Below, in pieces: positions 19,975 through 63,590 of a DNA stretch of 64,000 bases. Made by a program: the position numbers and the translations under genes. The notes beneath the pieces are model-generated. The model saw only the letters and a list, made by a program, of their open reading frames with translations. It did not search any database and had not been told where the DNA came from. Source of the DNA: Styela clava (Eukaryota; Chordata; Ascidiacea; Stolidobranchia; Styelidae); contig NC_135252.1 in NCBI RefSeq assembly GCF_964204865.1, positions 24,201,383 to 24,265,382 on the forward strand, given 5' to 3'. The stretch's first letter is position 1, and every line of letters begins with the position of its first letter.

Positions 19975-20976
19975 TTAAACATCATCAATTTTCCAAATTT
20001 TAACTTCACAGTCATCACTCGCTGAAGCGAGGATTCCCGGCTGAGCGGGATTCCAGGACACGCAGTTTACATCTTGCGCGTGAGAGTGATTATACGAACA
20101 CAACAGATTGAAAGTCGGTTCATCAGAAGAGCTTTTCTCATCTTCTTTAAAGATTCGAATAGCATCATCGGCACACGCTGTAGCGATGAGTCCCGTTTGA
20201 TGACACCAGTCAACGGAAAATATCGTTCTTTCGTGAAATCCAGAAAGAGTGCAAATACATTTCCATGAATACTTTGAACTCCCTGTCACAATATTTTGAG
20301 GGTTGCCAGATTTATAGCGTTTCCATATCTTTAAAGTTTTATCATCTGAGACTGTTGCTAATCGATCGCCGGATTTATCCCAAGAAATTGACCACACGGT
20401 GGAGTCATGACCTTCTAACACTGCACCAGTAACCCACTCCCCGTCATCCTCCTCAAAAATCCGCACTGTATCGTCATAGCTACCCGAAGCAAAAATATCT
20501 TCATTAGGATGCCATACTACTTCTTTTACATCCTGGGTATGAGAGGTCACGACCCCTGCACATTCAAAATCATCCTCATCATAGGTTTCCCAAACCCAGA
20601 CTGATTTATCCCGAGAACATGTTGCCAGATATGACCCTGAAATGGACCAGGCTGCAGCTTTGACTTCATTTTCATGTCCTTCAAGTGTTGCAATACATTC
20701 AAATTCCCCTGATTTTTTATCCCAAATACAAACTGTTGCATCAAAACTTGCGGTCGCTAAACGGTTCCCACAAGGGGACCAAGCAACCCTTCGTATTGCA
20801 CGCTGGTGGCCTTCTTCGAGAATCGTTTTGCAGACCCATTTTTCACCCTCCAGCCCCCAAATTCGCACGCTTTTGTCGCCGCTGCAAGACGCCAAATGCT
20901 TTCCTGTGTGATTCCAGTGAACACCCCATACTCTATCACCATGTCCCGTTAACGTTGCAATTTGTCGGATAGACAT
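19975..20976 (-). CDS. CIAO1: CIAO1, cytosolic iron-sulfur assembly WD40 protein (intronless)
   Basis: Complete 333 aa, against about 339 aa in human. In the cytosol, CIAO1 with MMS19 and FAM96B (CIAO2B) forms the targeting complex that delivers Fe-S clusters to nuclear and cytosolic apoproteins. The sequence is a seven-blade WD40 propeller. Repeats are visible at TGHGDRVWGVHW...KSVRIW, GHQRAIRRVAWSPCGNRLAT...VCIWD, GHENEVKAAAW...KSVWVWE, HTQDVKEVVWHP...TVRIF, GHDSTVWSISW...TLKIWK, HERTIFSVDW...AIRIF and HAQDVNCVSWNP...EVKIWK. The start ATG is followed directly by the first repeat, and the C-terminus ends in the family-like WKIDD. The single uninterrupted exon contrasts with every neighbour; no poly-A tail or flanking duplication was seen that would prove retroposition. 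Confidence 0.97.
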   Translation of the reverse strand: MSIRQIATLTGHGDRVWGVHWNHTGKHLASCSGDKSVRIWGLEGEKWVCKTILEEGHQRAIRRVAWSPCGNRLATASFDATVCIWDKKSGEFECIATLEGHENEVKAAAWSISGSYLATCSRDKSVWVWETYDEDDFECAGVVTSHTQDVKEVVWHPNEDIFASGSYDDTVRIFEEDDGEWVTGAVLEGHDSTVWSISWDKSGDRLATVSDDKTLKIWKRYKSGNPQNIVTGSSKYSWKCICTLSGFHERTIFSVDWCHQTGLIATACADDAIRIFKEDEKSSSDEPTFNLLCSYNHSHAQDVNCVSWNPAQPGILASASDDCEVKIWKIDDV

Positions 20977-20999
20977 TATAGGGCTGATTTATAATATAT

Positions 21000-50800: not shown

Positions 50801-53800
50801 AGCATAAAAACAAAGATCTCAAGCATCTGATGCGAAAAGCAGAACGCACAGAAGAAGAAGTGAAAACCAGGAAGCAAGAGCAGGGAAAGATGATGAGAGA
50901 GGCGGCATCTGTCGAGAAGAAGATCCAAGAGAAGGAGACAGAACTGAACAAGAAGAGACCAATGTATATCAAAGTATGTATGTGATTTATGCATGGTAGT
51001 GAAACCATTTGAGGGAAACTCACTTGGACCATTTTCTAGGTTTTCATTAACTTAAACAATACTGCTATACAAAAACTATAAAAAGTGTACAAGAAGAAAA
51101 TAGTTTACAGATGGTGGCTAACCAAATGAAACCCTCGCTTTACCATGTGACTAGTAACATCTTCAAATTGCTCGGCGATAATTAATTTCATCACATGGAT
51201 GTATTGGTCTGATTACTTTACCACACACTTGTAATCATTGTACCATTACTTGTTGTTACTTGGTAATTATCTTTCCTGTCTGGTGATGATGCTGCATTGA
51301 TGGTTTATTATAGTTTGTAACAGGCTCACATAAGGTTATTATTTGTGTCAGATTTGAACAAAGTTTTGGCGTGTTGACCATAAAAAAAGCATATAATACA
51401 TTTGAAAAAATTAAATTTAAATATACCCCCACTTTCAAGAAATTTTCAGTTTGATTTAATTTGGCCACTTTTTCAAGTTATACATCAACAATGATTTATT
51501 CAATATAGATCTGGAAATAGATGTGCCTAATATGAAGTGTCTGTATAGACACCTGAAAAACCTTCATTATTCGATTCTTCTCAAATGCACTTTCCAGTTT
51601 TCCACATGTTTATTTCTTACAATGAATAAACCAATAGGCACCACTATTCCATTACAGGCGAAAGAAAACACAAATTTTGTAATGAAGAAGTTGGAATCGG
51701 CCAAAAAATCTCTCCGCACTGCAGAAATGAGACACGAGAGCCACATGCATGTGATTGAAGATTTAAAGCAACAACTGGCAGATGTGGAGTCTAAAAGATT
51801 AGAGTTTGAATCACAGGTATGTGGGAGGAGCATAGCCAAGAATTTTCAAAGAAAGGGTTCTGAATTTCAATTCTTATATAAGACAGTAACAGCTAGCAAG
51901 TCCGGTAGTAAAAACTACCCCTTGGGTAGGCCCTGGTATGTATACATGTTTTGTTCAAAATAATGCCATGAACGATCAGTCATTAATGTGGACTTAGTGA
52001 ATAAAGAGTTTCTTTTATGTATCTGTTTCAAACAAGGCTCTGCGCAAACGACATTGAGGTACAGCTAATATAGTACATATAAAAGTTAAAGACGTTTTTA
52101 TCAATATTTCCAAACAAAGGTCGAACTCGACAGTCAGACTGAAGGTCGTGACCTTGAGCTGGAAGAGTCGCAGATCAACGAATACAATCGCTTGAAAGAG
52201 GAAGCGGCAAAACGATCGACTGCAATAAATATGGAAATTGAGAAATTACTTCGAGAACAACAAACTGACCAGGAAAAGTAAGGACTCTGTGATTTTTATT
52301 AAAATTAATAATGTTCAAAATCAAAAATGTCTTCCCAGATCTATATGACTTGGTGTTGCTGTTCTGAAAGCATTGGCGATGTTTTCAATATCAAAAATTT
52401 AATTTCCTTTTGTTGTGACTGTGATTGATTGTGAAGAATAGCTATGAAACTGCAAATTATCAGGATATGTACCGTAACAGAGAGTATATATTCTGGGGTG
52501 TGCTGGTTATACCATATTCTGGGGTGTGCTGGTTATACCATATTCTGGGGTGTGCTGGTTATACCATATTCTGGGGTGTGCTGGTTATACCATATTCTGG
52601 GGTGTGCTGGTTATACCATATTCTGGGGTGTGCTGGTTATACCATATTCTGGGGTGTGCTGGTTATACCAAACTGTATTTCTCCATCTGAAAGCAACTTC
52701 TCCTTCTGTATTAATGGGTCCTTGTTCGAATTGAAGGTTTGAGCAATTCCTTAAAAAATATTAATTTATGTTATGCATTTTACTTTCCTTTCAGACTTGA
52801 TGCCGAACGTCGTAAGAAAAGTGAACTCTGGTCTTTGCAGAAGCAGAAAAGCAAAGAACTTGAGGAGGCCACTTCGAGGTAATATATGTTCCCCTGTAAT
52901 ATTATATTATAACAATTTTCTTTAAGCTTGGGTCTTGTCCTTCTTTTATAGTCTTTACAAGAATGTAAAAATGTCTACGGCTCCCTTTTTTGAACTCCGC
53001 GATAGCAAAATTTTGATTGTGACAATCAAGACCAGTTGTTCTCAATAGGTAAGGCGCTCCCCACAAATCGTAAACTTTCTTTGGGGGGACGTGAAGCTGA
53101 TTGAAAATGAAAATATTCGTTAGATCTGATCTTGCCTGCCTCATTTCGGCGAATTCAAAATGAAAATTCTCTCCAAATCTTGATGAAGCATTCGAAAACT
53201 TACTCAAAATGTTAAATGTTTCATTATTTACGTCCCACCTATTTTCAACGTGTTTTTTTGAATAAAACACACTTTCGCCAAACTATCTGTTATTTGTAGC
53301 TCATTGTTAGCTAGTTATTTTCGAAATTAGGCGCTAAACTTGATGAATTCTAAAAAAGGGGGCGCTGAAACACTGATATAAAATCTACAACCATGATTCA
53401 AAAATCCACCAAAAACCTCGCAAAGATGTGAAAAAACATTGAAAAAAAATCGACAATTTGAATTTCATTTAAAAGTATTAAACATTTGTCTTCGAAAACA
53501 ATTAGTTATCATGTATTTAACTCTCTGCATTGCTTTAAGCAAGTTCTCTTAAAAACTTTTTGTATTGAATTAACTATTCTGGGACTCAAGTCCTATACAA
53601 TTACGGCATCTTATCAGTGATGAGCATAGTTAAATGTGAGTTAAGTTTCCTTTAAGCTTGGAATTTCATTTTTTCAGAGTTGACAAATTGAGAGATTACA
53701 TTAAGACAAGCCGACAGACTTTGGCAGAACACAAGAAACTGAAGAGTGAATTGGAGAATGAGGTGGGCATTACTGGGGCGGTATCGTATTGAAATGGAGG

Positions 53801-56800
53801 GTATTTTTTTTGTATTGTGATTTGTGATGTCACATTTTTGTATTGTGATGTCACATTTTTGTATTATGATGTCACATTTTTGTATTATGATATCATATTT
53901 TTAGGTGTTGGTGGCATGGAATTTGGTACCAAGATTTTCACGTCAACTAAGCATCACTAGCTGATGAAGTCTTTTTTTTCAACATTTTACTTTACAGAGT
54001 TAACTTCCTCTTCCTAGGTTCAAGGGTCATATGAACGAATTCGTGAAATCAACGTAGAGTTAGAAGAAGTCATGAAAAAGCAAGGAGATGCAAAAGTGGA
54101 TCGTACGGAAAGTTCAAGGCAACAAAGGAAAGCGGAATTACTTGCAAATCTGAAGAGACTCTTCCCTGGAGTGGTAAGACTTGTAATCTAATGTTTTGGT
54201 CGGTGCAGGGCACGGGTTGGCAACCTTTAGCATTGAGCCATTTCGCATTCTTTCAATCAAACTTAAACCTACTCGGAGCGCAACATCTACTCTAATGTCA
54301 GTGGCTATCAAAACTTTCGGAAAATCACTTATGATGCAATAATCTAGTTCTTACTAAGAAGAAGACAATTGAAATATGAATGATGCAATAATTCAGTTCA
54401 CTATAAAATGAAAAGTTTGCTTTGATAGATTTGAATCACCTTAATGTGATTTATTATTACCTCTCACGACTTATGGATGGATGTTTCCTATACCTCTGAT
54501 TGACCCCTGGAAAATTATTTCTATACTTCCCCCATTGCAAAATTTTTTGTTCCTTTTTGAAGAGTGGTTTAGGGCAGGGCTACTCAACTGGTGGACCGAG
54601 GACTGAATCCGGTTCTTTCAAGTATTTAATTCGGGCCGCACTTAATTCTTTATTTTGAATCGTTACTTTTACTTTCAAAGTTTCATTCTATAAAAAAAAC
54701 ATTTATTGTTTTGAATATATACGGAAAGAACTATAACACTATAATAAACAATCTTGATTTGCTAATAATCATTAGCCGGCCGAGAAAGTGCGCGTTTAAG
54801 GATGTCGAAATATATTTTCTGGAAATACCGGACCCAAATTATTTTTAAGTTTTGTATGCGAATCTTCGGTAAAAATAGTTGAGTAGCCCTGATTTAGGGA
54901 AACCGGTTTATGTTTCAAACCTTATTTTGATCCAAAACATTCAAACCTATCATTTAAAAGCACTGATAGAAAAGTTCTGGTTAGCGAAACCGGTTTATAT
55001 GTTTTCAAATCTTAACTTTGATTCAAAATATTCAAACCTATCATTTGAAAGCACTGATAGAAATGTTCTGGTTAGCGAAACCGGTTTATATGTTTTCAAA
55101 TCTTAACTTTGATTCAAAATATTCAAACCTATCATTTGAAAGCACTGATAGAAAAGTTCTGGTTAGCGAAACCGGTTTATATGTTTTCAAATCTTAACTT
55201 TGATTCAAAATATTCAAACCTATCATTTGAAAGCACTGATAGAAAAGTTCTGGTTAGCGAAACCGGTTTATATGTTTTCAAATCTTAACTTTGATTCAAA
55301 ACATTCAAACCTATCATTTGAAAGCACTGATAGAAAAGTTCTGGTTAGCGAAACCGGTTTATATGTTTTCAAATCTTAACTTTGATTCAAAACATTCAAA
55401 CCTATCATTTAAAAGCACTGATAGAAAAGTTCTGGTTAGCGAAACCGGTTTAGATGTTTTCAAATCTTAACTTTGATTCAAAATATTCAAACCTATCATT
55501 TGAAAGCACTGATAGAAAAGTTCTGGTTAGCGAAACCGGTTTATATGTTTTCAAATCTTAACTTTGATTCAAAACATTCAAACCTATCATTTAAAAGCAC
55601 TGATAGAAAAGTTCTGGTTAGCGAAACCGGTTTAGATGTTTTCAAATCTTAACTTTGATTCAAAATATTCAAACCTATCATTTAAAAGCACTGATAGAAA
55701 AGTTCTGGTTAGCGAAACCGGTTTATATGTTTTCAAATCTTAACTTTGATTCAAAATATTCAAACCTATCATTTAAAAGCACTGATAGAAAAGTTTAGCC
55801 CAGTCATTCATAGCTATTTCTAGACAAATTTTTACGTAACCTTCATTCCAGCATGGCCGTGTTCTGGATCTCTGCGAACCGGTTCACAATCGTTACAAAA
55901 TTGCCATCACTAAAGTTCTCGGGAAATACATGTACGCGATCGTTTGTGACACAGAAAAAACAGCAAGGGATTGTATCCAGTATATGAAAGAGCAGTGCGA
56001 TGAACCAGAAACGTTTTTACCGCTGGATTATATCGACGCAAAACCTGTGAACGACAAATTGAGAGAAATTAGGTAAGGGATGAACTGATTTTTATTTGGT
56101 AACTAAATAAACGAGAATATCGGTTGGAAACCGAAGACTTATCGATCGATGGTTAGGGGATCCCCTAAACCAGGGGTCACCAAACTTTTTTGACCGCGGG
56201 CCGGGTATGACTCAAATTGTGTTGAAACGGGCCGGATGAATATTTTTGTCAATGCAATACAATAAATTCACAAATGTTGGGAATATCGCAGAATATAGAT
56301 CGAGAACAACCTAGGAAAAAAAATTAACAAGATTTCTATATCTAGACAACTATCCTGAGTGTAGCTGTTATCAAAACGTTGCTGTCATGAATTAGAAATG
56401 TTACAAAATCCGCGGCAAAAAATGTACGCATCACGTCTACCGTTACGCCGTGTTGAAATACCGCTCATAAAAATGACTGCCTGCTGTAGCTTGGAATTCT
56501 ATGAAATTTTGACATAATTTAGATAAAATAAACAACTATTATCTGGTATTTGAATTTTTTCATTAGCGCATAAATTTCCCAACATTCGACGCTTTTAAAA
56601 ATTACGCTCCAGTTATACGTAGTGCAAATAATGATATTGTCTACGGACACCAATAAAATTTATATGGACGTGTGTATTTCTTGTCTAACTTGATACTTAC
56701 CAATTTTTATGAAGTTCGTACAATCAGAACATCGTTAATTATTACCCACAATGAACCACTGTCAAACTATCATGCACAACTCCAGCGTTTATTTGCGACG

Positions 56801-59800
56801 ATCTTTCGGCGGTGTCAATGACCGTTGCCAGAATAAAATCCTGAAATAGTCTCAATATACCATAGATGTGACGCACATCGAAAGATTAGTGATTGATATG
56901 TGTTATTTTTCCATATTTAGTTCAGTTCTTATCAAAAAAGTAATAGGATCATTATGGAAAAAATTGGCTGTCGGGCGGTACTAAAATTCCGATATCTCCG
57001 TTATTTCTTGACCGTTTATTCCAAACTTGGTATTGTTTTCTATTTTTACTCAGATCTTTCCACTGGAGCAGTTTTTATTTAAATCGGATGAACTTCAATT
57101 TTTTTGTAACATACCTACATGAATATCCGCATTGAAGCAGTACAAAAGTTAGTGTGGCTTTTGAAATTGGAGCAGTACGCGAGGGATTACAGTACTGTTA
57201 GCACAAAATGCACATTCGACGTTTATTTTACCACGAAAAACAAACAGTTTCGTCGAAAGCAAGCGCCACAAGTGTACAAGTGTATCGCAGAAAACGTTAC
57301 GTACTGGTAGCATTCAAAGTCGCAAAAACGAAGTTTTGTTTACAACCACGACTGAAAATCTGTCAGAGTGACAAAAGTGTCTGAGCGGATGCGGAAAGGC
57401 CTATTATTACGTCACTTTTCTGCATCTTGCCGATTGGCCAATGTTACAAAATAAACAAGGACGACGATGCTCGTAAAAATCTTCCTTGGAAAAAATTTAG
57501 CCATTTTTGCGTGTTATTGCGGACCGGATAAAATGACGCCGCGGGCCGGATAAAATGACGTCGCGGGCCGGATCCGGCCCGCGGGCCGTAGTTTGGTGAC
57601 CCCTGCCCTAAACAGAAACTGCAGTTTCGATTCATCCGCTCTTGTAACTTGCGCACTGCGCATCGCGCACACACACTCGGCGGGTCTCAAAATTCTCTCG
57701 CTTTACAAAAATCTAGATCACTATATCAATAATTGATTGATAACTCGCTAATTATACGACATAATTCGCCCAAAATCAATAGGTTTCTGGTCCGAGATAT
57801 GATGAATGCACATGCAAAATTTGGAGCAGATTCAACCTCGCATTCGCGAGATATCGCGTTCATCTAACAGACACACACACAGACATACAGACAAATACTT
57901 ATCAATATACTTACCGATCTTAAGATCGATAAGTAATGAGGAGTAACTCGGAAGACAGATAACTGTTAATTAAAGTGTTACATGCCAGGAATAGCCAAAA
58001 CTGAATATTTCACTGTTCCTGATATATTCTGAAAAATATTTTCCAATATGGAAGACCAAATACATTCTAAATTGGGGGCAAGTTCATTCGGAAAAGGACA
58101 TAAATCATCACATCTTCATGTTGATTACATCTGAAAGGCCATAATTATAAGAAGGTCATTGTTTGTTTTGACTAACTTGCGTAATGGCTCATAATCTAAC
58201 AGTCGATAGCTAACAATAAGCTACAAATAACAGATAGTGAGGCGAGAGTATGTTTTATTCAAAAAAGACGTTGAAAATACAGGGAAAGATCCGCAATCTT
58301 TAAACCAGGGTTGGTGCAACCTTTTTCATTGGCGGGCCAAATACAAGTAACTGGGTGAAGCTGCTGGCCGCACCATAATTTAATTCAGGCTTTCTGGTAG
58401 TTGCAAGCGCAAAAATTGCTTATATTTGCTATTGATCTTACCGCATTGTTAGGGGTTCTTGCAGAAATAGTAGATTTAAAACGCATAAACTTCTGAAGAA
58501 ACTGCTATTTAAATTTCAACTTCAACTTTCCGACTTCAAACGAATGCAGCGAGAAACACGTTTTTGTAATATAAATCGTGTATTATGCAACAGAATTTTG
58601 TTAGCTTGTTTTGCTGATATGACTGGTATGGGCTTTGCGACGAAAAAGAATAAATACTCGTTTTGCGGGTACACCATTCGAAATTGTTATTTCTCCGCGG
58701 GCCACACAACTTCTTCTTGCGGGCTGCAGTTTGCACGCCCCTGCTTTAAACAATAAACAAATGTAAATATCCAAAATAAGTCGTGCAAGATAAATCTAAC
58801 AATATATTTTCTTTTTAGTTAGCGTCTCACAACCCCTCACAAAATTGTCCTCTTGTGGAGCGGGCCTCACCGTTTGATAACTGCTGATCTATGACATTAT
58901 CAGATTTTCCTAACGATTCTATGAATTCCTGATCATTTTTTTCTTCCAGGGAGCCTAAAGGAGTTAAACTAGTCATTGATGTGATTCGTTACGACCGTCC
59001 AGTGATTAAACGAGCTTTACAATTACAATTCACTTGCGGGAATTCCCTTGCAATTTTGCATGTATCCGAATACTCTATTTGCATTGCACATCATATTTAA
59101 TCTGTGTGTTAGTGCTTTTATAAAAGCATTTTCCATTTTTTGAGCTAAATTCTTCATCAACAATAATTTCTATTCCCAGGGAGCCAAAAGGAGTTAAACT
59201 AGTCATTGATGTGATTCGTTACGACCCTCCAACGATTAAGCGAGCGCTACAATTTACTTGCGGAAATTCTCTTGTCTGTGAGACCGCAGATGACGCACGT
59301 AAAGTTGCTTTTGGACAAGTTGAAAAACATAAGGTATGTTTTGTTGATTTTTATAGCTACAATTAATTAATATTATGTCGCTTTTTTAAAATTTACTGCA
59401 ATTCTACTTGTTAACCCAGTATAAACCTGACGTGGGCCAAGTACGGCCCGTTTGGAAATTCAATCTGGCCCGCCTGATGCTGCCACAACTAAACTAAAAC
59501 CAAATTCCATGTTTGACCTAAAAAATAGCTCAAGGAATTTGTTGAGATTGCGATAATTTATTTTTGGTACAAGACTTATTGTTTTTCAGTTTTGCTTTTG
59601 GATAGGATAGGATAGGATTTACATATTTATCTCGGGGGAGAGGAAAGCTGATAAGACGGCTTATCCATATGGCGAACCACGGCCTATCGTCCGGTTACCA
59701 TTCCAAGCGGGTATGGGATTAGTTTTACTGTATATTTTGTTTTCGGAAGCATGGACTTGGTGGTGGAGGAAGCCGTAACCGACCAGCGGTTACGTGAACC

Positions 59801-62800
59801 ACCCAACGACGGCGAGGAGTCCAGCAATCCTCTCGCACATGACCATCCCTGCATGGGATTCGAACCTGCGAACCCACGCAGAGTAATTAGAGGTGCGGTG
59901 GCGAGCGTATTCCTAACGCTTAGCCCGTTGAGCCACACTGTCGCGCCGGTAAATATTGTTAATAAATGTAACTTTTTACGTCACACTTACAGGGCCCACC
60001 ATTTTAGGTGGGCACAATTTTTGGCCACTGATTCAAAAACCTTGTCCACCGCTGGTATAAACGTATATTTAATAAATGGGGCTCCAGAAGTATGTGCACC
60101 AAGATGTCGCACATCCTGAACATAGTATGTGTACCAGGTTAGGGTTCAGGCTGTGCGCCATCTTGGTGCACATACTTCGGGAGCGCCAATAAATGCCCTT
60201 AAACAATAACCAAAGTAAACCATAGGCAACACAAACTGAACTGCGCATGAGACTACTGAGAGAACTTGACTACTTCATCTTCACAGCTGGTTGGTCATGA
60301 TCAGTCATCTGTAACTGATGACATCACCGGTCATGCTCAACCATCTGGGAAAATGCTAGTTGCCAGAAATCAATAGAGCTACAGTTAACATGAACATTTC
60401 TTTCTCTTCAACAACTGGAGCAATATTTGTTCTCCTGTGCGGTGTGACGCATTGTGCTAAGCGTTAGGAATTTGCTCGCCAACGCACCTCTGATTACCCT
60501 GCGTGGGTTAGCAGTTGCGAATCCCGTGCCAGGATAGTTATGTGCGAGAAGATCCCTGGGCTCCTCGCTGCCGTTGGGTGGTTCACATAACCGCTGGTCA
60601 GTTTGCTAACTAATCCCATACCCGACATGGACTGGTAACCGGACGAGAGGTCGTGGTTCGCCATATGATCGTCGTCTTTTTGACTTTTCTCTACCCCGGA
60701 ATGAATATATAAATCCTAATGATATTTCTTATTTTTCATTCATTCATATTGAAGTATTTTTATGTTTTTGGTTTATTTTAATCATTTTTTTGCAAATGGC
60801 AGGATATGTTCCAGAGACCTGATGGGACAAAAAGAAGAAATCAGGTTAAGAAACTGCATGTAGTGTAGTATTGTGCATGCTAAACAAAACACTAATCAAA
60901 AAATTTGCGAATATTTTATTTGTGTGTTTTGCCTTTACAAAGCCCTAAACAGAGTTACCGTATTTCCCGTCGAATAAGTCGCTTTTCTATGCCCAAATTT
61001 TTAGCCAGATTAGGCGAGTATGATAACTTTTTTGGTGTCGCCTTATTATTCAATGTGTACCATAAAATACCAAATACTCTGGCGATAGCATTCCACGTTT
61101 TCATCATTGCTGTGTTGTTTTAGATCGGTAATGTTCTTATATATGGTGCACACAATCGCGAGTTAGGTTGAACACAATTAGATTGAAATCGAAAGCCAGT
61201 TTGAATTCTCGTAGTTTTTATGAATTGAATATTACTCTACAAGAAAAAGTCATTATAGGCTATTTCAACCAATGCGCAAAGGCGGCGACCGCTCTAAAGC
61301 CTCTGCATAGTAATTTGAGATTCTGATGTTTGATGTGATTCTACTACTCGTCTTATTGGCAGGTTATATGCGAAAAGCCTTTTTTTCAGGCTTAAAAACG
61401 AGCCCCGTCTTATTCGCCTGGTAGACTTATTTGCCGGGAAATACGGTATATACAATAATTGAAAAACTGGGTGTAGTGTGCATGCTTTGCACCAATTTTT
61501 TAAATTCTTCTATGAGGTGTGCGGTGGCGTATGGTAAATTGGTCTGGTATTTGAAGGGCGCTCCAGAAGTATGTGTACCAATATGGAGGGAACTAATTTT
61601 GTACGACTACTTTACATCAAGTTGTGTAAAGGAACTAAAACCTATGGGCAGGAAGTATATTCACTTGGCTAACACAGACAGTCCCCGAACTCGTAATAGA
61701 ACTAAAATAAGGAAAATGAGAATTAAATTATGGCCTAACCCTAACCTGGTACACATACTACGGGGGTACCACTTGAAGATATATAGAGCACAACGGGTTC
61801 TCAAATAACTATGTAATCCGGATGTTTCGATTTTCTATTCAGCAAATCATCCAGGCATGATATGTTTTAGATTAGATTTCACTTCTTGATCATTTTTCTT
61901 GCTAAATATGACTTTGGTATGTTTACTAACCATGCACTGATGAAGTTTTTCTGAACAGAAATTTTAAACGCTGAAAAATTATGTGGTTTTGCTCACACCG
62001 GTTATGCTATGTATAACACCACTTGTAGTGCATTCTGCATGTTGATATCTGATTTTATAATTTGTGGAATTATCCCAATAACACTCGATAGCTTTTAAGA
62101 GGTGTAAATAATTTTTAGCTCTCTTCTGTCTGTCACTATTTTTTCCTCTTATCAGTTTTTCACATCTCAAGATTGCATTTGTGATAGTAATCTGTAACTT
62201 GGTCAATAATGCTCAGTATCTTCTGAAAGTGTAAAATAATTTCTAGCTCTGTTCTGTCTGTCATTAATTCTTCCTTATTAAATGCTCTTCACATTTCAAG
62301 AATGTATTCAGGATAGTGGATTAATATCTATTGATCTTAAGATCGATAAGTATGTTGATAGGTATTTGTCTGTCTGTTGTTTGTTTGTCTGTTAGATGAA
62401 CGCGATATTTCACGAAGGCGAGGTTGAATCTGCTCCGAATTTTGCATGTGCATTCATCTTATTTCGGACCAGAAGCCTATTGATTTTGGATGAATTATGT
62501 CTTATAATTAGCGAGTTAATAATAAATTAGTGATGGGACATGCGGTGTCGCTATAGAGTCATGAATCGAAATCGCAGTTTCGGCCACCACCACCATGCAT
62601 GATCCTATTTAATAAGAAGTCTTCAAATCATGAAATTTTCACTTTTTTGTGGCTAGTCTTTTTGCTAATTTCGTAACTTTTTTTTTGATGTATGTCGGTA
62701 ACATTTTTCTAGTAAGCACAAGTGTAGTGGAATATACCCGACTTGCTTGTAGTGCAGTGCAGTCTGCATGTTATTCACTAATTTTGTCATTTGTAGGATT

Positions 62801-63590
62801 TTTTCAATATCCCTAAGTAGGTTTTATGAGGCGCAAGTTAATTGCAAATTGTAGTCACTTGCGCTCTATTTCATCTGTTACTATCTACTAGCTTTTATAT
62901 ATATTTTTAAAAGCATGTGCAAAATAAGTTATTATTCATTTATTGCCTTGCTCGCAATCTTCACCTCTATGCATAATCTAATTCTAATAAGTATTAAAAT
63001 ATTAATTTTATACAGTTTTGTAAATTATTTCCATCTGATGATTTTGTAACTCTTCCTTTCCTGCACTCTTTTTCTGAATTAGGCGATAGATAATCGACTA
63101 CTGGTATTTTGAGATTCACACTACTTTAATAAGACCCAACATCTTTTGAAATTGTCAACCCAAGTTATTGCATCTTATTTTTGAAAACTCGCTGACGGCA
63201 AACAAGCGCAAGCTTTCTCACAAGTGCAACTTTGAAATTCATTTCTGTTAAAAGAATTACTGTTTTGTATTGACCATTATTTATGTGGCCATAAGAGCAC
63301 TACGTACCATTTAGTATGCAAGTATATCATTTGGTCAGGAAATTTCACAAAATTTATTTTTTAAAAAAATTGGTTACTAGGAAAAAAAAGGTTGGGTACC
63401 ACTGTACTAAACAATAACAACTTCCATTTTAATATCCAGGCAGTTGCATTGGACGGCACATTGTTCCAGAAATCCGGCGTGATATCCGGCGGTGCCACCG
63501 ATCTCAAGAGAAAAGCCCAGAGATGGGATGAGAAGGCCTTGGATCAGCTCAGAGCAAAGAAGGAGAAACTAACTGAAGAGTTAAAACAAG
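44813..63590 (+). CDS. SMC1A: SMC1 cohesin ATPase, SMC1A-like; N-terminal half, continues past the window
   Basis: Core subunit of the cohesin ring with SMC3 and RAD21; it acts on chromatin in sister cohesion and loop extrusion. Exons: 44813-44921, 46846-47023, 48492-48615, 49128-49287, 49685-49842, 50803-50973, 51658-51816, 52120-52277, 52795-52878, 53678-53762, 54018-54173, 55852-56072, 59180-59333 and 63440-63590. All are in phase, giving about 689 residues here. Visible features are Walker A GPNGSGKSN (32-40), [45 protein letters not shown] head sequence and a long coiled coil (about 170-500). The hinge runs from about 513, with [61 protein letters not shown] and [20 protein letters not shown]. 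The C-terminal coil and head lie outside. A second copy of the exon at 59180 sits at 58950. SMC1A versus SMC1B is inferred from overall similarity. Confidence 0.95.
45049..46507. mobile_element. non-autonomous DNA transposon with TA target duplication, SMC1 intron 1
   Basis: The left end CCGTAAAAGCGCCTAACTTC and right end GAAGTTAGGCGCTTTTATGG are inverted repeats (21 of 22 bases including the next two). TA flanks both sides (45047-45048, 46508-46509), as in Tc1/mariner-type insertions. Further GTCCGAAGTTAG / CTAACTTCGGAC motifs lie inside each end. It is 1.46 kb with no transposase frame. Confidence 0.85.
47319..47650 (-). mobile_element. tRNA-derived SINE, full length, SMC1 intron 2
   Basis: Same layout and very similar to the 43783 copy: GGATTTACATATTCATCCCG to GTTGAGCCACACCGCCGCGC, including the GGGTTCGCAGGTTCGAATCC head on the minus strand. 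Confidence 0.9.
47845..48435. mobile_element. hAT-like element with exact 8 bp TSD (CTTTAAAT), SMC1 intron 2
   Basis: Starts CAGTGTGTGCCGTGAGAG and ends ATAGTTTGAGAACCACTG. CTTTAAAT occurs at 47837-47844 and 48436-48443. Subterminal GTGCCGTGA / GCGCCGTGAGC repeats are visible. The terminal inverted repeats are short. Confidence 0.75.
49500..49620. mobile_element. short foldback MITE, SMC1 intron 4
   Basis: GGGTGCTCCCGTACCAAGAT and a right end with ACCTTGGTACGGG ... TTACGGGAGCG. The inner arms CAAGATGGCGCACAACCTGA / AGGTTGTGCACCACCTTG are inverted. Confidence 0.75.
49855..49995. repeat. degenerate tandem (TT(T)CACATATTTT-like), SMC1 intron 5
   Basis: Repeated units such as TTTCACATATTTTTATGTG, TTGCACATATTTTGTGTTG, TTTCACATACTTTGTGTG and TTACATATTTTTATGTAG occur in series immediately after exon 5. 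Confidence 0.7.
52489..52672. repeat. 26 bp x 7 minisatellite, SMC1 intron 8
   Basis: TTCTGGGGTGTGCTGGTTAT followed by ACCATA repeats with identical units starting at 52491, 52517, 52543, 52569, 52595, 52621 and 52647. Because 26 is not a multiple of 3, all frames are cycled and the long open frames across it are artefacts. Confidence 0.97.
53810..53905. repeat. ~23 bp x 4 short tandem repeat, SMC1 intron 10
   Basis: Units of TTTTTGTATTGTGATGTCAC, with TTATGATGTCAC and TTATGATATCAT variants. Each contains TGATGTCA, similar to a CRE core. Confidence 0.85.
54575..54891. mobile_element. hAT-like MITE, near-exact 8 bp TSD, SMC1 intron 11
   Basis: CAGGGCTACTCAACTGGTGG and ATAGTTGAGTAGCCCTG are inverted termini. 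The flanks GTTTAGGG and ATTTAGGG match at 7 of 8. It is 317 bp and sits just before the satellite array. Confidence 0.88.
54898..55796. repeat. 91 bp x ~10 tandem array (minisatellite), SMC1 intron 11
   Basis: The unit begins GGTTAGCGAAACCGGTTTAT and continues with GTTTTCAAATCTTAACTTTG, ATTCAAACCTATCATTTG and AAGCACTGATAGAAAAGTTC. Period 91 is measured from unit starts at 54979 and 55070. The units differ at a few sites (ATATTC/ACATTC, TATATG/TAGATG, TTTGAA/TTTAAA), giving a readable internal order of variants. The array ends about 55 bp before the exon 12 acceptor region. Confidence 0.96.
56106..57945 (-). repeat. R3 dispersed repeat split by a hAT element, SMC1 intron 12
   Basis: 56106-56170 (AACGAGAATATCGGTTGGAA to GGATCCCCTAAAC) and 57606-57945 (CAGAAACTGCAGTTTCGATT ... 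CCGATCTTAAGATCGATAAG) are two halves of one R3 copy. The hAT element at 56171-57605 lies between them. Confidence 0.85.
56171..57605. mobile_element. hAT-like element, 1.4 kb, exact 8 bp TSD (CCCTAAAC)
   Basis: Left end CAGGGGTCACCAAACTTTTT and right end TAGTTTGGTGACCCCTG are inverted, with subterminal GACCGCGGGCCGG / CCGGCCCGCGGGCC. CCCTAAAC lies at 56163-56170 and 57606-57613. A short duplicated segment (GCGGGCCGGATAAAATGACG) lies near the right end. No transposase is recognised. Confidence 0.93.
58306..58743. mobile_element. hAT-like MITE, exact 8 bp TSD (CTTTAAAC), SMC1 intron 12
   Basis: CAGGGTTGGTGCAACCTTTT and CAGTTTGCACGCCCCTG are imperfect inverted termini. CTTTAAAC lies at 58298-58305 and 58744-58751. 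It is about 200 bp upstream of the duplicated hinge exon. Confidence 0.9.
58950..59061 (+). pseudogene. duplicate copy of SMC1 hinge exon 13 (decayed or alternative)
   Basis: Preceded by a good acceptor (TTTTTTCTTCCAG). It encodes [20 protein letters not shown] and [14 protein letters not shown], nearly identical to the true exon at 59180-59333. Differences are D-R-P-V for D-P-P-T and a 6 nt insertion giving QLQF for QF. Similarity stops after the GGGAATTCCCTTG segment, so the second half ([14 protein letters not shown]...) is lost. A possible donor GTATCC at 59062 would leave phase 0, the same exit phase as the true exon. Without that donor the frame stops at about 59100. Non-functional duplicate or mutually exclusive exon: undecided. 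Confidence 0.75.
59427..60054. mobile_element. hAT-like element, exact 8 bp TSD (GTATAAAC), hosting a SINE
   Basis: Starts CTGACGTGGGCCAAGTACGG and ends AACCTTGTCCACCGCTG. GTATAAAC lies at 59419-59426 and 60055-60062. Same family as 2290 and 31910. A minus-strand SINE is nested inside at about 59600-59947. Confidence 0.82.
59600..59947 (-). mobile_element. tRNA-derived SINE nested in a hAT element
   Basis: Full-length minus-strand copy. The plus strand reads GGATAGGATAGGATAGGATT, showing a (TATCC)n-type variable 3' tail on the minus strand. It ends GTTGAGCCACACTGTCGCGC. Confidence 0.9.
60077..60190. mobile_element. short foldback MITE, SMC1 intron 13
   Basis: GGGGCTCCAGAAGTATGTGC and GTGCACATACTTCGGGAGCGCC are inverted termini, with CAAGATGTCGCACATCCTGA and GCTGTGCGCCATCTTG arms and a central ACCAGGTTAGGGTT. 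Confidence 0.85.
60435..60720 (+). mobile_element. tRNA-derived SINE, plus strand, SMC1 intron 13
   Basis: CTGTGCGGTGTGACGCATTG head, AGCAGTTGCGAATCCCGTGCC (decayed B box), GGTGGTTCACATAACCGCTG, CATGGACTGGTAACCGGACG and CCCCGGAATGAATATATAAATCC tail. Confidence 0.85.
60803..60844 (+). other. candidate 42 nt in-frame cassette exon of SMC1
   Basis: Acceptor TTTTTTTGCAAATGGCAG and donor CAG|GTTAAG bracket 42 nt encoding [14 protein letters not shown] with no stop. The flanking SMC1 exons (59180-59333 and 63440-63590) both join in phase 0, so inclusion would add 14 residues between VEKHK and AVALDG in the hinge. Only splice-site grammar supports this; vertebrate SMC1A has no residues here. Confidence 0.35.
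60958..61446. mobile_element. non-autonomous element with TA target, SMC1 intron 13
   Basis: CCGTATTTCCCGTCGAATAA and ATTTGCCGGGAAATACGG are inverted termini flanked by TA (60956-60957, 61447-61448). Inner AATAAGTCGC / GTCTTATTCGCC motifs are also inverted. It is 489 bp and non-coding, and a related GCCGGGAAATACGGTAT piece lies at 34297. Confidence 0.8.
61556..61775. mobile_element. long-form MITE, SMC1 intron 13
   Basis: GGGCGCTCCAGAAGTATGTG and GTACACATACTACGGGGGTACC are inverted termini. The interior has TTTACATCAAGTTGTGTAAAG and CCTAACCCTAACCTGG. A 125-codon frame across it is spurious. Confidence 0.82.
61776..63430. other. rest of SMC1 intron 13
   Basis: Holds a plus-strand R3 copy at about 62330-62585 (GATCTTAAGATCGATAAGTA, TGAATCTGCTCCGAATTTTG, TGATGGGACATGCGG). 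Two similar segments at about 62040-62165 and 62205-62290 share TCTAGCTCT/TTTTAGCTCT, CTGTCTGTCA and TTTCACAT(C/T)TCAAGA. The remainder is AT-rich and unrecognised. Confidence 0.55.

Follow-up and report, generated by a model that had tools for sequence, protein, structure and literature searches.

A shortened, probably relict copy of the SMC1 hinge exon in an intron of the ascidian Styela clava

The SMC1 hinge exon and its shortened copy

The 64,000-nucleotide stretch of Styela clava DNA analysed here (hereafter, the window) carries the 5' portion of a gene that encodes the cohesin subunit SMC1; it occupies the plus strand from approximately 44.8 kb to the window end. Fourteen SMC1 exons or exon parts were placed via open reading frames, a procedure that may miss further ones. 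Elsewhere in the window, on the minus strand (19975-20988), a single open frame of 337 codons encodes a WD-repeat protein, which we take to be CIAO1-like; this gene looks intronless. On another contig of the assembly (C6:3634352-3634435), a 28-residue fragment of cytochrome oxidase I that includes one TGA codon was the only match of its query and may be nuclear DNA of mitochondrial origin. The region of SMC1 considered below comprises the following features:

55852-56072, plus strand: preceding SMC1 exon, ending on the first two bases of the Arg codon that is continued at 59180
58950-59050, plus strand: homologous part of the upstream, shortened copy of the hinge exon, delimited by alignment and protein match
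59019-59030, plus strand: doubled ACAATT, the sole 6-base in-frame insertion of the copy, yielding QLQF
59051-59179, plus strand: spacer between the copies, including the acceptor region of the live exon
59180-59333, plus strand: live SMC1 hinge exon of 154 bases, starting on the last base of the Arg codon and ending on a codon boundary (exit phase 0) before the donor GTATGT
63440-63590, plus strand: following SMC1 exon, with its 3' end set from the best candidate donor only

The live exon and the next exon together match 22 distinct PDB sequences. The best six of these matches are SMC1-type hinges (E 2.5e-46 to 8.4e-41), labelled either 'protein 1A' or just 'structural maintenance of chromosomes protein'. 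With the live exon, the match to the SMC_hinge profile (PF06470) reaches 86.7 bits, above the cut-off of 22.5.

In the intron immediately upstream, the 101 bases from 58950 to 59050 are the counterpart of the first 95 of the 154 bases of the live exon; the local alignment joins 58932-59050 to 59163-59274. Of the 93 aligned codon bases (31 codons), 83 are identical, leaving 10 base differences, and the copy runs through 33 codons with no stop or frame break. In a search of the whole assembly (376.6 Mb, 379 contigs), the protein match of the copy has an E value of 5.0e-11, and the only two scored candidates are the upstream copy and the live exon, which puts the likeness well outside chance and bears out the two neighbouring copies reported in the first-pass annotation of this DNA. 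Several other elements of that description also hold, namely, an AG acceptor belonging to the copy itself, the open frame, the D-R-P-V and QLQF changes, and the missing second part. Through these changes the leading proline of the DPP/EPP stretch is replaced, and two residues are added. Over the part common to both copies, the live exon is the better fit to SMC1A hinge chains, at 44.2-44.8 bits versus 33.7-34.2 bits for the copy, with queries of differing length.

The copy lacks the last 59 bases of the live exon (59275-59333) and its donor. A search of the spacer for a counterpart of these 59 bases found none, as 182 of 500 and 79 of 300 shuffled sequences scored equally well. At an E value of 0.05, a search of the window with the 14 SMC1 exons revealed a duplicate for one of them; for the third SMC1 exon, a distant match on the opposite strand (33%, E 0.016) was taken as chance. 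For other genes, 12 coding pieces were picked by hand, and none proved to be duplicated at E 0.001. Relatives were also sought in viral_contigs, where 14 pattern matches were obtained and none was confirmed.

Flanks, spacer and local repeats

Strictly, a tandem duplication, the term originally applied to this pair, would include intron sequence. The two copies stand, but the strict sense finds no support in the flank alignments, in which nothing around the copies aligns past about 18 intron bases. The immediate left introns align no better than shuffled sequences (273 of 500 score as well or better), also with the last 20 bases removed (279 of 500). The same holds for the spacer aligned with the sequence that precedes the dispersed repeat (117 of 500, or 138 of 500 with the repeat omitted) and with the second part of the live exon plus intron (182 of 500), and separate runs on the flanks (264 of 300 and 79 of 300 shuffles as good) likewise lend no support to homology; given such short flanks and a dS near 0.38, weak intron homology could escape detection. 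The stretch 59040-59180 has a single match in the assembly, which is itself. The gap between the copies is 118 bases, as initially given, when counted from the candidate donor described below, and 129 when counted from the end of homology.

The copy is preceded by a dispersed element:

58782-58892, plus strand: piece of a dispersed repeat just 5' of the copy, recurring at 26 or more other genomic sites with 72-83% identity

Direct repeats that span 50 bases or more and lie within 1 kb fill 15 rows, one of which is the exon pair; several of these rows cover parts of a single repeat, and two represent tandem arrays. Because such repeats are common here, a stray local copy would be unremarkable in itself.

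Other repeats were observed in the same region. The spacer contains a perfect 16-base palindrome, TGCTTTTATAAAAGCA (59113-59128), which could be due to chance. An inverted repeat at 59880-60500, with 59-base arms of 83% identity and inner 45-base arms of 91% identity (60077-60188), is transposon-like. The intron before the exon at 55852 carries a minisatellite (54894-55795; 10 copies of a 91-base unit, 97% matches), and another SMC1 intron sequence (52488-52670) consists of seven copies of a 26-base unit with 100% matches, probably a recent expansion.

Splice signals and predicted products

Whether the copy could be spliced into a message depends on the following signals:

58910-58949, plus strand: 3' splice site region of the copy, with branch-like CTAAC (58910) and CTGAT (58929), a T-rich tract and AG
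59062-59067, plus strand: in-frame candidate donor GTATCC, scoring -3.23, at the 67th percentile of the GTs of the window
59098-59100, plus strand: in-frame TAA, reached when the copy is read on beyond 59061

A branch pattern places CTAAC at -40 and CTGAT at -21 relative to the acceptor of the copy, and finds only TTCAT, at -27, for the live acceptor. By eye and branch motif, without a score, the candidate acceptor of the copy looks at least equal to the live one.

The donor side is different. The first-pass annotation ended the copy at 59061 and proposed a possible donor there. A GT does follow 59061 and its exit phase is 0, but homology stops at 59050, and the score is poor under our donor matrix, which is one of human splice sites. 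Between 58960 and 59179 there are 11 GTs. Those scoring best inside the copy, after 58980 (-0.14) and after 59001 (-1.11), both have exit phase 0 and exceed the proposed donor; exons ending there would be 31 and 52 bases long, respectively, and the hinge would be shortened further. The GT after 58980 recurs inside the live exon with identical neighbours. For comparison, the donors after 59333 and 56072 score 5.48 and 5.80, and the best GTs near the ends of the 14 SMC1 exons range from -0.99 to 5.80, where taking the best GT near each end favours high scores and yields candidates rather than proven donors. The GT after 59061 thus falls below all 14, and the GT after 58980 lies above the weakest of them. 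An alternative last exon was also considered: the spacer (59051-59179) contains TATAAA at 59119, and six other variants of the signal, including AATAAA and ATTAAA, are absent from it.

If the live exon were swapped for the copy with the donor at 59061, the frame would be kept and the three exons would encode 161 residues rather than 175. In this product, AILH replaces 20 residues and QL is gained, so that the hinge is 14 residues shorter. With 64.5 bits instead of 86.7, the profile match stays above the cut-off, and positions 104-116 of the 116 in the Pfam hinge are lost. Inclusion of both copies results in a frameshift and early stops. Splicing from the upstream acceptor to the normal donor gives a 384-base exon (58950-59333) with a premature stop at 59098.

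Divergence between the copies

The 10 base differences comprise seven synonymous and three non-synonymous ones, the latter in two codons, corresponding to dS of 0.38, dN of 0.044 and dN/dS of 0.12 with the 6-base insertion excluded. When a neutrally evolving copy was simulated along with a live exon that accepted synonymous changes only, on average 6.3-6.8 of 10 differences were non-synonymous, and three or fewer were found in 1.8-3.8% of the simulations (P 0.018-0.038). Counted by codon, the ratio is seven synonymous to two (P 0.007-0.017), and codons 16-31 alone give six to two (P 0.009-0.022). The model behind these values is simple and the sample small, and the insertion, which was left out, would weaken the test if counted as non-synonymous. 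The open frame by itself is less telling, as 60% of the simulated dead copies are also free of stops. The excess of synonymous changes is hinting that the copy coded for protein before its 3' end was lost. At face value, the copy coded during part of its existence; such past coding would require a donor and probably full length, both since lost. Divergence that is mainly synonymous is a poor match for a copy without function from its origin.

The differences are unevenly spread, with one in the first 45 codon bases and nine in the next 48 (Fisher P 0.016, with the split point picked post hoc). Gene conversion confined to the 5' half might produce this distribution, which is suggestive only; neither 'gene conversion' nor 'cohesin' occurs in PMC9741552.

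Nature and origin of the copy

We consider it probable, at roughly 70%, that the copy is a relic of an SMC1 hinge exon that at present would be unable to give a normal hinge. This reading builds on the loss of the 3' end and the weakness of the candidate donors, together with the asymmetry of phase and the stop on read-through. Under this scenario, the relic would have kept its 3' splice site, with the last 59 of the 154 bases and the donor gone. The splicing machinery would presumably skip it by exon definition, and transcripts that used its acceptor, whether with the exon 58950-59333 or with both exons, would carry a premature stop and be destroyed. More tentatively, the copy might once have been full length and coding, perhaps in mutually exclusive use with the live exon, and then have suffered a 3' deletion. 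The 33 open codons, the good-looking acceptor and the in-frame GTs scoring -0.14 and -1.11 would argue against a relic. The 'dead exon' that was initially allowed for is apparently the better fit for the present, but a copy dead from birth is ill-suited to the mainly synonymous divergence.

It is nevertheless plausible, at somewhat below even odds, that this is how the copy originated, that is, as a fragment copied into the intron by template switching or local repair, truncated and dead from the start and decaying since. The failure of the intron flanks to align beyond some 18 bases, the position of the left edge of homology near the exon start and the abundance of local repeats are all compatible with such an event. 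What speaks against it is the count of three non-synonymous differences where neutral decay predicts more than six, a small sample that the insertion would weaken. This account of the origin overlaps with the relic reading of the present state, as both give no normal alternative hinge.

A regulated decay switch, in which some cells would splice to the upstream acceptor and the premature stop would lower the SMC1 level, appears rather unlikely. It would make sense of a 3' splice site with two branch-like motifs, of the stop at 59098 and of the frameshift upon double inclusion, and cryptic poison exons are known from human introns (PMC11632617). However, reading through a short AT-rich spacer would be expected to run into a stop by chance, and none of the candidate donors belonging to the copy is convincing. 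A composite history, whereby the SMC1 gene of this lineage formerly had two mutually exclusive hinge exons, the upstream one now being a decay-coupled switch that sets the SMC1 level, strikes us as improbable.

A working alternative hinge exon spliced via the donor at 59061 is very unlikely. The agreement of frame and exit phase and the mainly synonymous substitutions would suit it; the donor, at the 67th percentile of GTs and below the 14 SMC1 candidates, and the drop of the hinge match with loss of the profile end do not. The original suggestion that alternative use alters the hinge thus retains its basis, a second exon copy with its own acceptor, but is weakened on these two counts. Least probable of all is an assembly fault, for instance the tandem joining of two alleles, given that the spacer and the left flank fail to align with the flanks of the live exon, that the copy is truncated, and that the spacer is matched once in the genome.

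Under the preferred reading of the copy as a relic, its significance depends on what it was before. The gene pair SMC1A/SMC1B is known from vertebrates. A relic that had been an alternative hinge exon would mean that this lineage formerly produced two cohesin hinges from a single gene, in the absence of a gene pair of the vertebrate type. A stray copy would add one to the local exon fragments and serve as a warning in gene prediction, since an open frame with a good-looking acceptor may be wrongly annotated as an exon.

Comparison with known systems

Intronic exon duplicates are described from human, fly and worm in PMC9013439, where human genes are credited with 4,027 intronic targets and at least some of the unannotated human duplicates may be expressed. 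As cited there, a 2002 study found that about 10% of animal genes hold tandem duplicated exons and also covered unannotated exon duplicates in introns. Among the paper titles listed, none points to a doubling of the SMC1 hinge exon, although one may still have been described elsewhere.

With the mutually exclusive tandem duplicated exons of Dscam1, 14-3-3 zeta and tropomyosin, as portrayed in PMC9013439, the SMC1 pair shares homologous neighbouring exons with the same entry phase and an asymmetric exon the joint use of which is out of frame. It differs in that the copy has no 3' part or convincing donor and that exclusive use would be hypothetical; the lengths are dissimilar, at 101 bases (112 to the candidate donor) versus 154, and the copy does not hold the full domain segment. 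The homology between neighbouring exons and the frameshift on double inclusion that mark such pairs are both found.

The cryptic poison exons discussed in PMC11632617 resemble the copy in that read-through or double inclusion brings a premature stop; the swap via 59061 brings none, and unlike these exons, the SMC1 copy is no cassette exon with two good splice sites. There is also a likeness with the unannotated intronic exon duplicates treated in PMC9013439, since the SMC1 copy, too, is exon-like and lies in the neighbouring intron with more than 80% identity; it differs from these in being truncated. The doubled exon is real, single and of an already known kind, ordinary in kind and mildly curious in history.
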